DNA from: Nocardioides marmoriginsengisoli
Lineage (GTDB): Bacteria; Actinomycetota; Actinomycetes; Propionibacteriales; Nocardioidaceae
Reading direction: 5' to 3'
DNA: 64,000 nucleotides
Assembly: GCF_003725695.1 (NCBI RefSeq)
Contig: NZ_RJSE01000007.1
Coordinates: 1,490,508-1,554,507 of the forward strand
Shown one piece after another: positions 47,844 through 53,883 of the stretch; the first letter of the stretch is position 1; each line of letters starts with the position of its first letter. Made by a program: the position numbers and the translations under genes. The notes below the pieces were generated by a model. The model did not search any database. It was not told the DNA's origin and saw only the letters and a list, made by a program, of their open reading frames with translations.

Positions 47844-49424
47844 GTGCCGTCCCGTCGCGTATGCCTCCCTGCCCTCGTGGCGACCCTGCTCGGGTTGCTC
47901 CTCGGGCTGCTGGTGACGGCCCCGTCCGCGCAGGCCACCTCGACGCTCCTCTGCAAGGGGTTCACGGCGTGCGCGAAGGCCGGGTACAGCAGCTTCGGCT
48001 ACGGCCCGACCAACTACAAGAAGATGTGGTGGCGGATGTACTCCGGCCACAACTGCACCAACTACATGGCCTACCGGATGATCAAGGCCGGCATGCCCGA
48101 GACCCGTCCGTGGTCGGGCAGCGGTGACGCCCGCAACTGGGGCGTCGTCTTCAAGTCCAAGACCAACCAGACGCCGACGGTCGGCTCCGTCGCGTGGTGG
48201 AGCAGCAACCACGTCGCGTACGTCGAGCAGGTGATCGACGCCAACACGATCATCATCTCCGAGGACCACTACCGGGGTGACTTCGACTGGCGCAAGATCG
48301 TCCGGGCCGGTGGAGGCTGGCCGACCGGCTTCATCCACCTCGTCGACGAGGCGATCACCGCGACCGCGCCGCCGACCGTCGTCGGAACGCCGCAGGTCGA
48401 CAAGAAGCTGACGGCCAAGCCGGGCACCTGGAGCAAGACGGGTGCCAGCTACGCCTACCAGTGGCTCGCCGGAGGCAAGGCGATCGCCGGTGCGACGGCC
48501 TCGTCGTACGTTCCGTCGGCAACCCAGGTCGGCGCGGCGTTCACGGTCAAGGTCACCGCCAGCAAGTCCGGCTACCGGACCGGGAGCAGCGTCTCCAAGG
48601 CGACCGCGGCCACGGTGCCCGGCACGATGGACGTCGCGGCGACCCCGGTGATCAGCGGCATCCCCAAGGTCGGCGCGGTGCTGGCCGCCTCGGCACCGAC
48701 CTGGGCACCGGCGCCGTCGGCGTCGAAGTGGGCCTGGTTCGCCAACGGCGTCTACATCCCGGGCGGCTCGAAGGCCACCCTCACCCTCAAGCCGGCCCAG
48801 CTCGGCAAGGCGATCCGGGTGGTCTCGGTGGGCTCGCGCCCCGGCTACACGGATGCGCAGGCCCGTTCCGAGGCGACCACCGCGGTCGGTCCGGAGAAGC
48901 TCAGCGTCGGGAAGGAGCCGGTGCTCTCCGGCTCGCCGTACGTCGGCCGCGCGCTCAGCGTCAAGCCGGGCGTGACCGATCCGACCGACGTGACCACCAC
49001 CTACCAGTGGTTCCGCGACGGCAAGGCGATCCCGGGTGCGACCGCCGCGTCGTACACCCCGACGCTGACCGACCCGGGTGTCCGGCTCAGCGTGCAGGTC
49101 CGCTACTCCAAGCTCGGCTACACCCCGATCGACCGGGTTCTCAAGCCGCGGACGGCGGTGCGTTCGCTCGCCCGGATCTACGTCAAGTCCAAGGCGCACC
49201 GCTCGGTCACCGTCACGGTGCTGGCCAACGGGGTCAGCCCGGTGCGCGGCGACGTGGTGCTCACGAACCGGGCCGGGACCAAGCGCACCCTGCCGCTGGT
49301 CCGCGGCAAGGTCACCTTCTCCCCGGACTGGCTGTACGCCGGCAACCGGCCGCTGACGGTCAGCTACCTCGGCTCGTACCGGGTCGAGGCCCGGAGCCTG
49401 ACCAAGACCTTCACGATCAAGTAG
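47844..49424 (+). CDS. Secreted CHAP-domain protein with Ig-like repeats
   Basis: 526 residues. Signal peptide (about 1-31, cleavage near AQATS). Residues 32-170 form a CHAP amidase/peptidase domain: catalytic Cys in GHNCTNYMAYRMI and His in WWSSNHVAYVEQV, then FIHLVDEA. Residues 175-430 contain three Ig-like or bacterial adhesion-type repeats of about 85-90 residues (GTPQVDKKLTAKPGTWSKTG, GIPKVGAVLAASAPTW, GSPYVGRALSVKPGV) with shared YQW and GYRTGS-type segments, and a last beta-rich domain. Probably cleaves peptidoglycan at the cell surface, in growth or attack. GTG start. Convergent with the exporter gene, gap 1 nt. Confidence 0.87.
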   Translation: MPSRRVCLPALVATLLGLLLGLLVTAPSAQATSTLLCKGFTACAKAGYSSFGYGPTNYKKMWWRMYSGHNCTNYMAYRMIKAGMPETRPWSGSGDARNWGVVFKSKTNQTPTVGSVAWWSSNHVAYVEQVIDANTIIISEDHYRGDFDWRKIVRAGGGWPTGFIHLVDEAITATAPPTVVGTPQVDKKLTAKPGTWSKTGASYAYQWLAGGKAIAGATASSYVPSATQVGAAFTVKVTASKSGYRTGSSVSKATAATVPGTMDVAATPVISGIPKVGAVLAASAPTWAPAPSASKWAWFANGVYIPGGSKATLTLKPAQLGKAIRVVSVGSRPGYTDAQARSEATTAVGPEKLSVGKEPVLSGSPYVGRALSVKPGVTDPTDVTTTYQWFRDGKAIPGATAASYTPTLTDPGVRLSVQVRYSKLGYTPIDRVLKPRTAVRSLARIYVKSKAHRSVTVTVLANGVSPVRGDVVLTNRAGTKRTLPLVRGKVTFSPDWLYAGNRPLTVSYLGSYRVEARSLTKTFTIK

Positions 49425-49425
49425 G

Positions 49426-52089
49426 TCAGCCGACCTGGTCGGCCGCGAGCTCGAAGTAGAGGCCGCGGCGCTCCAGCAGCTCGGCATGGGTGCCGCGCTC
49501 GGCCACCCGGCCGGCGTCGAGGACCAGGATCTGGTCGGCGTCGCGGACCGTCGAGAGCCGGTGCGCGACGACGAAGACCGTGCGATCCGCGGCTGCCGCG
49601 CGCAGGCTCGCCTGCAGGGCCGCCTCGGACTCGGCGTCGAGGGCGCTGGTGGCCTCGTCGAGCAGCAGGATCGTCGGGTCCCGGTAGAGCGCGCGGGCGA
49701 CGCAGATGCGCTGCCGCTCGCCGCCGGAGAGCCGGGTGCCGCGCTCGCCCACCCGGGTCTGGTAGCCGAGCGGCAACCGGCGTACGAAGTCGTCCGCGGT
49801 CGCCGCGCGAGCCGCCCGCGCGAGCCGCTCGGGGTCGACCTCGTCCGCGCCGACGGCGATGTTCTCCGCGATCGTGCCGTCGAAGAGGTGACTGTCCTGG
49901 AGCACGATCCCGAGGCGGCGCCGGTGCGCTCGCAGGTCGATGCCGGCGAGGTCGACGCCGTCGCAGGTGATCGTGCCGGACTCGGGCTGCAGCAGCGCGG
50001 CGAGCAGGAGCAGCAGGGTGCTCTTGCCGGCGCCCGACCGCCCGACGATCGCGACGGTCTCGCCGGGGCCCGCCTGCAGGGTGATGTCGTCCAGCACCCG
50101 CCGGCCGGTCGCGCCGGGATGCCGGAAGCCGACCCGGTCGAACCGGACCCGGCCGTCGCCCGGTGCCGGCGCGATGCCCTCGCCGACCTGCTCGGGCCGG
50201 TGGTCGACGAACTCGCCGAGACGGTCGAGGAGCACCCGGCCCTGCTGGAAGACGTCCCACAGCGACAGCAGCTGGGTCAGCGGCGCGCTGGTCAGCATCA
50301 CCAGGGACAGGAACGGGACGTACTCGCTGATCGGGATGGTGCCCTCGACGACCTGGTAGGAGCCGTAGGAGATCGCCAGCGCGAGCGGCACCAGCGCCAC
50401 CACCGCGAGCGCGCCCTCGTAGAGCATGATCGTGAAGTCGGCACTGAACAGCCGGCCGGCGAGGTCGTCGAACTGGCCGGCGAGGCGTCGCTGGAGCTGG
50501 GGTTCGGCGCCGGTGGCCTTCACCGTGTCGATCCCGCGGATCGCGTCGATCTGGCGGGACTTGTAGCGGCCCCAGGATTCCTCGAGGCTCTGGAAGGCCG
50601 GGCGCAGCTTGCGCCGCGAGATGTACATCAGCACCAGGTAGAACGGGACGACCACGAGGTAGACGGCCGGCAGCCGGACGTCCCAGTGCGCCATGATCGC
50701 CCAGGCCCCGACGACCTGGAAGAGTGCCACGAAGGCGCCGACCCCACGGGTCAGGAAGAAGCTGCGCACCTCGCGCAGGCCGTTGAGCCGGCGCTCGATG
50801 TCGCCGGTCCTGCGGTTCGCGAAGAACGTCACCGGGAGGGCGAGCAGCGTCTCGGCGACCCGGTCGAGGCTGGCCCGGTCGATCCGCAGCGCCGCGCGGG
50901 TGATCACGTACCGCTGGACCACGGTGAGGCCGGCCGCGAGCCCGAGGACGCCGAGCACGATCAGCATCACCGGGAGCAGCGAGGCGGTGTCGTCGCGCTG
51001 GATGACCTTCTCGATCACCCACTTGCTGGACAGCGGTACCGCGAGGGTCGATGCGGCGATGCCGATCCCGCAGAGGGTGGCGATCGTGATCGCCGGCCAC
51101 TCGGCCCGCAGGAACGGCCGGAAGAACGGTCCGCCGGAGGATGCGACCGGTGCCTCGGCCAGCTTCTCGGTGGGTGCCGTCAGCAGCGCGAAGCCGGTGA
51201 AGCGTTCCTCGAAGGCCGACCGGCTCAGCGACCCGGAGGACCCGACCGGATCCATCACCCGGACCTGCTTGCGGTCGACCTTGTCGAGCACCACCCAGTG
51301 GTTGCCGTCGACGTGGCAGAGCGCCGGGAGGGGCAGCTCGTCGAGGCGCGACGGCGAGACCGTCGTCATCGCCGAGGTCAGGCCCAGCGCCTGGGCGCCG
51401 TGGTGGAGGCCGAGCAGGCTGGTGCCGTCCGAGGCCGACGACACGGCCTCCCGGACCGCGACCAGGCTGACCGGGTGGCCGAAGGCGCGGCAGATCGCTG
51501 CCAGTGCCGCCGCGCCGCAGTCCATCTGGTCGAGCGCGAAGACCTGCGGCACCCGGGGGCGCTTGCGGGAGCGGAAGGGCGCCCAGTCGTCGCTGGACGC
51601 GGTCTCCGCCGCCGGGGGCGCGGCGCCAACGGGATCGGAAGCCGGCGGATCGGGGAGCCGCGCGTGCCGGCGCCGGCGGCGCCGCTCCGGCGGGGGCGCG
51701 ATCGTGGCGTCGCGGAAGGCCGCTCCGGTCGGTGGCCAGAGCTTGGTCAGCGACCTCGCGATCGTGCCGTGCAACGTCAGCGTCTGCAGCGGCCCGGTGG
51801 CGCGGACGCTCACCGGTGACGGCTCCCGGGCGGCCGCCTCCGGTGCGATCAGTGCGCCGGGCCCCAGCAGCCCGAGCTGGACCTCGGCCCCGTCGTGACC
51901 GCGAGCGCTCGCCCGGGCCCGGCCGCGGACGACGATGTGGACGGTGTCGGGGACGGCGCCCTCCGTCACGAGCTCGTCGCCGAGGTCGTGGTGCGCGGCG
52001 CCGAGAGCCCCGGCGATCAGCCGGCGTACCTCGAACGGGGCGTCGTCGAGGTCGAGGAGCCCGGCCGGCAGGCGTGATCCGAGATCCAT
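49426..52089 (-). CDS. Peptidase-containing ABC exporter with N-terminal cyclic-nucleotide-binding-like domain
   Basis: 887 residues. Residues 1-115: a cNMP-binding-like domain (EGAVPDTVHIVVRGRA), but its phosphate cassette (GALIAPEAAAREPSPVSVRA) lacks the usual FGE and the Arg. An Arg-rich linker (135-145) follows. Residues 180-300: C39 peptidase with Cys191 (DQMDCGAAAL), His264 and Asp280. Residues 330-610: six-helix ABC exporter. Residues 645-887: ATPase with Walker A GRSGAGKS (683-690), Q731, LSGGE (787-791) and Walker B ILLLDE (807-812). It cuts double-glycine leaders and exports the product. The substrate candidate is the peptide at 52920-53072 in the same operon. Confidence 0.93.
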   Translation of the reverse strand: MDLGSRLPAGLLDLDDAPFEVRRLIAGALGAAHHDLGDELVTEGAVPDTVHIVVRGRARASARGHDGAEVQLGLLGPGALIAPEAAAREPSPVSVRATGPLQTLTLHGTIARSLTKLWPPTGAAFRDATIAPPPERRRRRRHARLPDPPASDPVGAAPPAAETASSDDWAPFRSRKRPRVPQVFALDQMDCGAAALAAICRAFGHPVSLVAVREAVSSASDGTSLLGLHHGAQALGLTSAMTTVSPSRLDELPLPALCHVDGNHWVVLDKVDRKQVRVMDPVGSSGSLSRSAFEERFTGFALLTAPTEKLAEAPVASSGGPFFRPFLRAEWPAITIATLCGIGIAASTLAVPLSSKWVIEKVIQRDDTASLLPVMLIVLGVLGLAAGLTVVQRYVITRAALRIDRASLDRVAETLLALPVTFFANRRTGDIERRLNGLREVRSFFLTRGVGAFVALFQVVGAWAIMAHWDVRLPAVYLVVVPFYLVLMYISRRKLRPAFQSLEESWGRYKSRQIDAIRGIDTVKATGAEPQLQRRLAGQFDDLAGRLFSADFTIMLYEGALAVVALVPLALAISYGSYQVVEGTIPISEYVPFLSLVMLTSAPLTQLLSLWDVFQQGRVLLDRLGEFVDHRPEQVGEGIAPAPGDGRVRFDRVGFRHPGATGRRVLDDITLQAGPGETVAIVGRSGAGKSTLLLLLAALLQPESGTITCDGVDLAGIDLRAHRRRLGIVLQDSHLFDGTIAENIAVGADEVDPERLARAARAATADDFVRRLPLGYQTRVGERGTRLSGGERQRICVARALYRDPTILLLDEATSALDAESEAALQASLRAAAADRTVFVVAHRLSTVRDADQILVLDAGRVAERGTHAELLERRGLYFELAADQVG

Positions 52090-52095
52090 CGCTGC

Positions 52096-52923
52096 TCAGG
52101 TCCCGATGTGCCGCGCCACGGCCCGGGAGAGGGCGTCGGCCCGGACGACGGCCTCGGCACGACCCCGGGTCGCCGGGTCGGCCAGCGTCGGTTCGGTGCG
52201 GGCGACCACGGTGACGAGGGCCCAGCCGGGATCGGCCTGGACGGGTCCGACCAGCTCTCCGGTGCGGGCTCCCGCCAGAGCGGCGCGGAGGTTCGGCGCG
52301 CCGATGCTGCCGAGGACGTCGGCGGATTCCTGCGCCGACGTCCCTGCCCGGCGGGCGGCGTCGCGCAGGTCGGCTCCGTCGTGGAGGACCTGGTGGCGCA
52401 GCTCCTCGGCGACCTCGCGGCGCTCGGTCGTGACGCTGAGGGTGTCCAGGTGGGTCCAGTCGAGTCGACGCGACTCGATCGCCGAGGTCAGCGCCTCGGT
52501 CGTGGTGCTCGCACCGATCAGCCGGTCGGTCCAGCCGGCCGGGTCGAAGCCGGCCGCGTCCATGGGGGCGGCACCGAGCTCGCAGGCGGCCGCGGCGGCG
52601 CTCACCACCTCCGCGGTGATCGCGTCGAAGGTGCCCGAGCACAGCAGCGTGCACCAGTCGGACGCCGTGGAGGTGCCGGCGGCTGCGTCCCGGGTCCAGC
52701 TCCGGAAGTCGTCACCGGTGAGGTCCCACGCGGCCAGCCATGCCTCCAGCTGATCTGCGGTCAGCAGGCCGCGCGCTCTGCGGAAGTCCTCCTCGGCGCG
52801 CTCCGCGCTCGCCGCCGTGACGGCTGCTCCGCGGTCGCCGACCCGCGCACGTCGTACGAGGTCGGCGACCGTGAAGACGACGCCGTTCGCGGTGAAGACC
52901 CGGCGGTCGTTGAGCAGGGTCAG
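52096..52923 (-). CDS. PpiC/SurA-like protein of a peptide export operon
   Basis: 275 residues. N-terminal helical region (RVFTANGVVFTVADLVRRARV, then AERAEEDFRRARGLLTADQL) as in SurA-type chaperones, and a C-terminal PpiC-like rotamase segment (RTGELVGPVQADPGWALVTVVARTEP). No signal peptide, so cytosolic. There is no ATG, GTG or TTG near the start: the best start is CTG at 52923 (or 52917), overlapping the precursor's stop (CTGA). PpiC-related proteins are known in peptide-maturation neighbourhoods (memory). It probably handles the precursor before export. 6 nt from the exporter gene. Confidence 0.75.
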   Translation of the reverse strand: MTLLNDRRVFTANGVVFTVADLVRRARVGDRGAAVTAASAERAEEDFRRARGLLTADQLEAWLAAWDLTGDDFRSWTRDAAAGTSTASDWCTLLCSGTFDAITAEVVSAAAAACELGAAPMDAAGFDPAGWTDRLIGASTTTEALTSAIESRRLDWTHLDTLSVTTERREVAEELRHQVLHDGADLRDAARRAGTSAQESADVLGSIGAPNLRAALAGARTGELVGPVQADPGWALVTVVARTEPTLADPATRGRAEAVVRADALSRAVARHIGT

Positions 52924-53072
52924 TCGATGTGGCCGAAGACGGTCACGAGGATGCCGCCGACGAGGGCGATCACGGCCGGTCCGATGTCCAGGAAGGCCGC
53001 TCCGCCGACGACACCGGAGGCGTCGGTCTCGGTGGGTGCAAGGTCCTTGAAGGTGTTCATGAGGTACCCCAT
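52920..53072 (-). CDS. Double-glycine precursor peptide (bacteriocin or signal candidate)
   Basis: 50 residues. Leader of 24: MGYLMNTFKDLAPTETDASG then VVGG, with Gly-Gly at 23-24, Val at -4 and an acid residue (Asp) at -8, as in leaders cut by C39 peptidases. Predicted mature 26-mer: AAFLDIGPAVIALVGG followed by ILVTVFGHID, strongly hydrophobic, with no Cys or Ser and one Thr, so no lanthionine or thiazole chemistry is expected. A second Gly-Gly at 39-40 offers a later cut. The ATG at 53072 has GGGAG about 8 nt upstream; an ATG at 53060 would shorten the leader by four residues. First gene of the export operon. Confidence 0.8.
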   Translation of the reverse strand: MGYLMNTFKDLAPTETDASGVVGGAAFLDIGPAVIALVGGILVTVFGHID

Positions 53073-53114: not shown

Positions 53115-53143
53115 TTTGTAGGCGCGGTCCCCGCGATTTACAA
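53115..53143 (-). promoter_or_regulatory. Promoter of the peptide export operon
   Basis: On the minus strand, -35 TTGTAA (53138-53143), exact 17-nt spacer and -10 TACAAA (53115-53120), each 4 of 6 to the consensus. The predicted start near 53108 leaves a leader of about 36 nt with the ribosome site. The spacer holds a small inverted repeat (CGCGG/CCGCG). Confidence 0.6.
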
Positions 53144-53262: not shown

Positions 53263-53883
53263 ATGACGACTTCTGACGCCGCGACCGGAACCGCAGACTT
53301 CTGGTTCGACCCGCTGTGCCCGTTCGCCTGGATCACGTCTCGCTGGATCCTCGAGGTCGAGAAGGTCCGCGACGTCCACGTGAAGTGGCACGTGATGAGC
53401 CTGGCGTACCTGAACAAGGACAAGGACATCCCGGAGCAGTACCGCGAGCTGCTGGCACCGGCCTGGGGCCCCGTGCGGGTGCTGATCGCCGCGTCGGCCA
53501 AGCATGGCGACGAGGTGCTGTTCCCGCTCTACAACGCCTTCGGCACCCGGATCCACCACCAGAAGCTGCCGATCGACCGGGACATGATCGAGGCGGTCCT
53601 GGCCGAGGTCGGCCTCGAGTCCGAGCTGGCCGACGCGATGGACGACTCCTCGCTGGACGAGGCGGTCGCCGCGTCGCACCACGAGGGCATGGACCAGGTC
53701 GGCGACGACGTCGGCACCCCGACGATCGCGATCAACGGGACCGCCTTCTTCGGGCCGGTGCTCAGCGCCATCCCGCGCGGCGAGGAGGCCGGCAAGCTCT
53801 GGGACGGCGCGGTCGCGCTGGCGGCGTACCCGCACTTCTTCGAGCTCAAGCGCACCCGCACGGGCGAGCTGGACTTCAGCTAG
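53263..53883 (+). CDS. Mycothiol-dependent nitroreductase/oxidoreductase family protein (Rv2466c-like) with CPFA active site
   Basis: 206 residues, DsbA-like thioredoxin fold with an inserted helical domain. The N-terminus [18 protein letters not shown] and the C-terminus GVAFFGP-type segment and [17 protein letters not shown] match Rv2466c of Mycobacterium tuberculosis very closely from memory. The family's CPWC motif is CPFA here (Cys19 kept, second Cys replaced by Ala22), so only one redox cysteine remains; a mono-cysteine mechanism with mycothiol is possible. Cytosolic. Divergent from the peptide operon. Confidence 0.9.

Follow-up and report, generated by a model that had tools for sequence, protein, structure and literature searches.

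The window analysed here is a stretch of 64,000 nucleotides from the soil actinobacterium Nocardioides marmoriginsengisoli (contig NZ_RJSE01000007.1, positions 1,490,508 to 1,554,507 of the forward strand). Within it, three neighbouring genes on the minus strand code for a small peptide precursor of 46 codons, a PpiC/SurA-like protein, and an exporter that combines a cNMP domain, a C39 peptidase and an ATP-binding cassette (ABC) transporter. An earlier note on this DNA, made from the sequence alone, had proposed these genes as a peptide-export cassette, and the three-gene arrangement was confirmed. The features of the cassette are as follows (window positions; gene coordinates include the stop codon):

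52920..53060, minus strand: precursor peptide gene, 46 aa (MNTFKDLAPTETDASGVVGG / AAFLDIGPAVIALVGGILVTVFGHID); family of nine copies across six genomes; start taken from a six-locus alignment and the GGGG site
53001..53060, minus strand: leader, 20 residues, with a Gly-Gly end that is the predicted C39 cleavage site; F4, D6, L7, P9, T10, A14, V18, G19 and G20 invariant in 9/9
52923..53000, minus strand: core peptide, 26 residues; grand average of hydropathy (GRAVY) 1.73, net charge about -2, calculated mass 2579 Da
52096..52923, minus strand: PpiC/SurA-like partner protein, 275 aa if the start is the CTG at 52923; no ATG, GTG or TTG near the conserved N-terminus
49426..52089, minus strand: cNMP-C39-ABC exporter, 887 aa
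53064..53070, minus strand: putative ribosome-binding site GGGGTAC
53115..53143, minus strand: promoter-like element TTGTAA-17-TACAAA
53164..53172, minus strand: conserved upstream box AAACGTAAC, possible regulator site, 29–30 nt before the -35 element

The distribution of the cassette was examined in 24 genomes of the Marmoricola/Nocardioides group, one of them 75% complete. The precursor, the PpiC-like protein and the C39 exporter were found in the same six genomes, in the same order, and none of them in the other 18; the PpiC profile matched six genomes, Peptidase_C39 six with one match each, and the precursor profile six strongly. The co-occurrence proposed earlier as a check of the cassette was thus observed, together with a conserved leader and a variable core. 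Loci with names come from two Marmoricola metagenome-assembled genomes (MAGs), one Propionibacteriales MAG, and Nocardioides marmorisolisilvae KIS18-7. Over the family, the PpiC profile matched 8 of 197 genomes, six being those of the genus and two having E-values of about 3e-4. Over the phylum, 12 of 396 genomes were matched, strongly the window's own genome, G312 (1.1e-20) and G364 (1.3e-13). For seven of the nine weak phylum matches, the surrounding sequence was inspected, in some cases a short contig, and no C39 exporter was found in it.

A precursor profile returned nine copies from the 24 genomes at E-values of 7.8e-17 or better, with the next match at 0.0185. Since five other genomes have relatives in the same position and nine copies were found by the profile, the possibility that the small open reading frame (ORF) is a chance frame was rejected. 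All nine precursors belong to the six cassette genomes: seven lie in cassettes (two in G018) and two are scattered, the copy of G012 on another contig than the cassette and that of G019 about 194 kb away. They have in common the motif F.DL.PT..[DE]A..[VI]VGG, one core Pro (28), one core Gly (35) and a C-terminal Asp, and the seven cassette precursors all end in HID. The Gly-Gly end of the leader, recognised already in the earlier note and expected of the cognate precursor of a peptidase-containing ABC transporter (PCAT), was conserved in all nine copies. The start of the gene had to be revised: it had been placed at 53072, which gives 50 residues, but the six cassette loci line up from the second ATG (53060), and a putative ribosome-binding GGGG[T/A] lies a few bases upstream of it, over the first ATG. 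The start at 53072 was therefore rejected in favour of 53060, from which a precursor of 46 residues (20 of leader and 26 of core) is obtained. No Pfam or NCBIfam match to the precursor was found, and the peptide family looks new; in nitrile hydratase leader peptide (NHLP) precursors, the leader is long and nitrile-hydratase-like, and the leader of 20 residues without a family match does not place the peptide among them.

The seven cassette cores have 23–26 residues, a GRAVY of 1.03–1.93 and a charge of about -2. For the two cores of Nocardioides marmorisolisilvae KIS18-7, the calculated unmodified masses are about 2446 and 2505 Da, and a disulfide (-2 Da) may be present in the second. Among eight precursors (G004, a near-duplicate of G016, was dropped), identity amounts to 69% in the leader versus 38% in the core, and the ratio of nonsynonymous to synonymous differences per site (pN/pS, given throughout as uncorrected proportions) among five cassette copies is 0.33 in the leader versus 0.54 in the core. 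Only one of the nine cores contains Cys (a pair, in the second copy of G018), Lys occurs in none, and no position holds Ser or Thr throughout, the most frequent being Thr at core position 7 in three of the nine (G016, G004, G018). These compositions argue against the usual modifications. Around the two scattered precursors, ten frames were scanned, eight of which match families (G6PD, DUF429 and molybdopterin oxidoreductase among them), and no enzyme of ribosomally synthesized and post-translationally modified peptides (RiPPs) as such was found among the ten.

Bioinformatics analysis of the exporter revealed matches to cNMP_binding (35 bits), Peptidase_C39 (93 bits), ABC_membrane (112 bits) and ABC_tran (121 bits), all above the Pfam cut-offs. 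Cys191, His264 and Asp280 of the peptidase, as well as Walker A, the signature and the H-loop of the ATPase, are in place, and Walker B was read by eye as LLLDEAT; the earlier assignment of an intact C39 exporter thus stands, and the fusion of C39 to the ABC membrane and ATPase domains is that of a PCAT. It is the sole Peptidase_C39 match in the window's genome. The TIGR03796 model gave 450.5 bits against a cut-off of 853.3. Cyclic nucleotide-binding domains usually have an arginine in the phosphate-binding motif; by eye, this stretch of the exporter lacks it, so that the ligand may differ from cAMP.

The identification of the second gene product as PpiC/SurA-like was upheld: the match to Rotamase_2 lies above its cut-off (27.6 bits versus 27) and SurA is the best solved relative (E-value, 4.8e-4), while the domain match itself is weak. 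TIGR04500 matched the protein with 29.5 bits (cut-off 180; hmmscan E-value, 4.3e-7). Comparison by hhalign indicated homology to the PpiC-type proteins beside two cyanobacterial cNMP-C39 exporters at 95.6% (E-value, 1.2e-8), and profile comparison with the protein of G242, which comes from a rosaritide-like cluster, gave 75.6% over 39 columns (2.4e-5). An N-terminal stretch, FRR.R.LL.A...WL....l...dF, is common to the window's protein and the two cyanobacterial ones, and the protein of G242 matches it too. A first contig scan with a single protein query found no relative, and a search of plasmids with the PpiC protein found no match.

The CTGA overlap of 4 bp between the precursor and PpiC-like genes, as had been described, turned out not to be an ordinary coupled start. 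With no ATG, GTG or TTG near the conserved N-terminus, the CTG at 52923, inside the CTGA, appears to be the only plausible start of the PpiC-like gene; CTG is a possible, though rare, start codon. In the relatives, the PpiC genes have an ATG or GTG of their own after a spacer, and 8–10 more residues (with ...LPDAP... in most) than the CTG start gives. The pN/pS of the window's copy versus its relatives is 0.58–0.80, and that among relatives with intact starts is 0.60–0.78, or 0.36 in the near-identical pair G016/G004. Because these values resemble each other, no clear decay of the PpiC frame is apparent.

In all six cassette loci, a promoter-like element, TTG[AT]AA-17/18-TA[CG]AAA, is located 81–85 nt before the start codon, and a CGTAA[CT] box lies 29–30 nt upstream of it. 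Since G016 and G004 are near-duplicates, the promoter comparison offers five independent views at most. The element is considered to belong to the cassette because G018 keeps it although metG, in place of nitroreductase, is its upstream neighbour; neither the promoter pattern nor the upstream box was found ahead of the two scattered precursors.

Two genes border the cassette in the window:

47844..49424, plus strand: secreted CHAP-domain protein, outside the cassette; convergent with the exporter, 1 nt between
53263..53883, plus strand: Rv2466c-like mycothiol-dependent nitroreductase, outside the cassette; divergent from the precursor

In five of the six genomes, the cassette occupies the interval between the CHAP and nitroreductase genes, and in G018 that between nitroreductase and metG. 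The corresponding site was compared in 17 of the 18 cassette-free genomes (G001 was excluded for want of a full-length pepN match), and tblastn found no exporter, PpiC protein or precursor in any of them. In these 17 sites, pepN is next to the nitroreductase gene, at a distance of up to about 1 kb (G020), and three of them (G021, G007, G008) have a CHAP gene in the interval; in the empty site of G021, 29 nt, which include the stop codon, separate the CHAP and nitroreductase matches. The metG gene was seen in 15 of the 17, and two contigs end before it. Although the CHAP gene accompanies the cassette in 6/6 genomes, it is present in three genomes without it, and it was therefore not counted as a cassette member. 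Overall, of the 23 genus genomes in which the surroundings of pepN were read, 9 have it between pepN and nitroreductase, and the protein diverges fast (45–65% identity between most genomes). In G018 (locus L012), the cassette sits on the other side of nitroreductase, with an exporter more divergent than metG predicts. With six taxa and few genes, metG groups G019 with G018, whereas the exporter sets G018 apart, and independent acquisition of the G018 cassette is possible. Judged by titles and abstract openings, none of the open-access papers returned by literature searches reports such a cassette for Marmoricola or Nocardioides.

The statement that no modification enzyme lies nearby was borne out: no lanthionine, radical SAM or cyclodehydratase enzyme was found by Pfam among 23 frames chosen from the part of the window that reaches from about 22.9 to 63.5 kb, six of these frames matching no family. 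A genome-wide search with TIGR04187 gave a strong match in one of the six cassette genomes, the window's own (150 bits), matches of 25 bits or less in three, and none in two. The ATP-grasp found in this way, of the TIGR04187/MvdC type (169 bits, below the cut-off; L050:8233-9356; C2, about 1158732-1159855), is located about 380 kb from the cassette, with an ORF of 63 aa just upstream on the same strand. It was rejected as the missing enzyme of the cassette, given its strong occurrence in one cassette genome of six and the small ORF of its own; the pair is probably a separate graspetide-like cluster.

Five distant actinobacterial relatives of the PpiC-like gene (G364, G408, G626, G242 and G312, an incomplete set) were examined. 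In G364, G408 and G626, LanB dehydratases are located near it, and in G242 an ATP-grasp ligase of the TIGR04187 type (236 bits, cut-off 350) accompanies a TIGR04500 protein (237 bits). In G312, no modification enzyme was identified in the two neighbour frames scanned, one being a polyprenyl synthetase and the other, of 129 aa, having no match. A PpiC-type profile search in the class of G364 (66 genomes) gave 12 matches, strong ones being G408 (part of the query alignment), G626 and G364. TIGR04500 matched 46 of 396 genomes at E ≤ 0.001, of which the neighbourhoods of G242, G408 and G364 and pieces of G165, G203, G327 and G401 were read; some matches outside them outscore G364, for example G058 at 6.8e-10.

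Several of these loci have features of their own. In G312, two tiny ORFs (L040:7857-8633), divergent from the PpiC-like gene, code for D-L..V-x-G-G leaders (D-L..V-T-G-G) and cores of 10–12 residues, and adjoin the 129-aa frame, which by eye resembles a 2-oxoglutarate oxygenase. G364, G408 and G626 (L046, L084, L123) harbour several to many precursors, whose leaders are of the DLDV..DA.DVRGG type and whose short cores frequently contain Cys and Thr; they are possibly an undescribed lanthipeptide group. Two cyanobacterial plasmid loci (L124:5511-15026 and L125:7116-17247), chosen from 40 listed of 3170 plasmid records matching the exporter, each have a cNMP-C39 exporter accompanied by HlyD and PpiC-type genes. 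In L124, these are followed by a HopA1-family protein and a phosphotransferase, both families being confirmed, which resemble class V lanthipeptide enzymes.

The claim that this combination of partners is not a named system was not supported. In groups I, II and VI of the cyanobacterial bacteriocin clusters, an exporter of the cNMP(CAP_ED)-C39-ABC type is found together with a SurA/rotamase protein (PMC3140520), and the window's cassette is like them in its long-type exporter (CAP_ED, C39 and ABC), its SurA/rotamase protein, here with a weak PpiC domain, and the small precursor nearby. Group I, the commonest (57 of 145) and described there as group II minus the additional modification genes, consists of the exporter, a SurA-type protein and HlyD (PMC3140520). 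In the window, no gene at all, and hence no HlyD, lies between exporter and partner, and the flanking frames with a family match all belong to other families. Because HlyD is absent and the host differs, the cyanobacterial hosts having two membranes, the cassette does not fall into group I. A second likeness is to the rosaritide cluster mirABCD of Micromonospora rosaria, with its precursor, TIGR04500 PpiC-type partner and TIGR03796 C39 exporter (PMC13097080, in part); TIGR04500 is also listed among proteins associated with graspetide loci in the portion of PMC8939145 consulted. By profile similarity, the PpiC-like protein is a distant relative of MirC. Unlike mirABCD, the cassette has no graspetide synthetase, and its TIGR04500 and TIGR03796 scores are below the cut-offs; in addition, no cNMP domain was found in the exporter frame of the rosaritide-like locus of G242. 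The clusters of G364, G408 and G626 share with the cassette a PpiC-like protein of the same family, the cNMP-C39-ABC exporter and leaders of the form D-L-..-A-..-V-x-G-G or similar, and differ from it in their fused LanB, many cores with Cys and Thr, and several to many precursors. No dehydratase or cyclase was found among the 23 flanking frames, six of them without a family match, and the combination of Cys with Ser/Thr is lacking in cores of which one in nine has Cys. Thus, because of enzyme and core, the cassette belongs neither to the graspetides, among which group 21 (the rosaritide type) has an ATP-grasp synthetase in the cluster, nor to the lanthipeptides. HetC of Nostoc PCC 7120 has the same cNMP-C39-ABC architecture; according to the available part of the report, its cNMP domain binds guanosine tetraphosphate (ppGpp), it is needed for cell differentiation, and no double-glycine gene was found near hetC, whereas here the likely substrate gene adjoins the exporter (PMC10986499). 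Judged by its predicted parts, the kind of cassette is therefore not new, and these resemble known bacteriocin-export clusters.

The cassette is counted as real because its three genes co-occur in the same six genomes with a conserved leader and a variable core. With fair confidence, we regard it as a cassette dedicated to the secretion of one kind of product, a hydrophobic, acidic peptide of 23–26 residues that is probably unmodified; this concerns mechanism, not role. The PpiC-like protein would be a cytoplasmic chaperone: by binding either the leader or the greasy core, it would hold the precursor in a soluble state in which it can be presented. Cleavage after Gly-Gly would fall to the exporter's C39 domain and export of the core to the ABC motor, and the N-terminal cNMP-like domain may gate the exporter in response to a nucleotide. 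In two genomes, the single exporter probably also serves the scattered precursor. As for role, we lean tentatively towards a bacteriocin-like, membrane-active peptide, which is favoured over a signal, the latter being a weaker but still credible candidate.

Several observations weigh against this interpretation. The core pN/pS gives no sign of positive selection, and the charge of -2 differs from that of typical cationic antimicrobial peptides. As the earlier note had remarked, no immunity gene, which would be expected of a class II (unmodified) bacteriocin, is evident, nor does the cassette contain a receptor, kinase or regulator gene. Six of the flanking frames are without a family, the genome-wide search for modification enzymes covered TIGR04187 alone, and a modification enzyme accompanies four of the five distant relatives (three LanB, one ATP-grasp). 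For the scattered precursor of G019 alone, there is a further caveat: a circularly permuted ATP-grasp/Alpha-E pair follows it on the same strand, about 0.9 kb downstream. The usual start region of the window's PpiC gene is missing, and the genome-wide TIGR04500 search at E ≤ 0.001 did not return the window's genome. The only such partner to have been studied, MirC, serves an enzyme and not an exporter: proposed as a chaperone, it is needed along with the ATP-grasp MirB (PMC13097080).

That requirement for both MirC and MirB in rosaritide formation suggests an alternative in which an enzyme whose gene lies elsewhere in the genome modifies the core and the PpiC-like protein serves as the partner of that enzyme. 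The TIGR04187-like ATP-grasp in the window's genome, the enzymes beside the distant relatives and the Thr shared by three of the nine cores are consistent with it; but the ATP-grasp is strongly matched in a single cassette genome, is distant from the cassette and adjoins its own small ORF, and eight cores are without Cys, none has Lys and no Ser/Thr position is universal, so that we hold this alternative to be distinctly unlikely. Another explanation shares the secretion mechanism and differs in purpose: the peptide would be a secreted signal (pheromone) whose receptor is encoded elsewhere and whose export is nucleotide-gated. The lack of an immunity gene, the leader held while the core diverges, the conserved promoter-like element with its upstream box, and the precedent of HetC (PMC10986499, in part) speak for it, and the lack of a kinase, regulator or receptor gene and the strong hydrophobicity of the peptide speak against it; in this full form it seems rather unlikely. 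The missing spacer and the 8–10 N-terminal codons could also mean that the partner gene has lost its start and that the cassette is a non-working, decaying remnant in the window's genome, and its absence from 18 of the 24 genomes fits such a course. Nevertheless, the PpiC frame is open over 275 codons with a pN/pS like that of intact-start pairs, the precursor, exporter and promoter-like element are intact, and a CTG may rarely serve as a start, which makes decay quite improbable. The dedicated secretion cassette thus remains our preferred explanation. A broader proposal, which we offer as speculative and on balance doubtful, is that the basic function of TIGR04500/SurA-like partners is to chaperone precursors for C39 exporters gated by cNMP, and not to assist enzymes. 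The cassette would then be the stripped form, in which a leader-specific chaperone and a nucleotide-gated exporter handle partly scattered, unmodified hydrophobic peptides with a leader, one Pro, one Gly and a C-terminal Asp in common, and LanB, ATP-grasp and perhaps HopA1/kinase would be interchangeable additions.

Cyanobacterial group I cNMP-C39 exporters are mostly without a known substrate (their clusters average 0.35 known precursors; PMC3140520), and HetC is likewise without one (PMC10986499). In the literature found, the role of a PpiC/SurA-type partner has been tested for one graspetide alone. Small in size and naturally absent from sister species, with a likely substrate gene and no linked modification enzyme that could be found, the cassette could serve to separate a chaperone role from that of an enzyme partner and to test the nucleotide gating of export.

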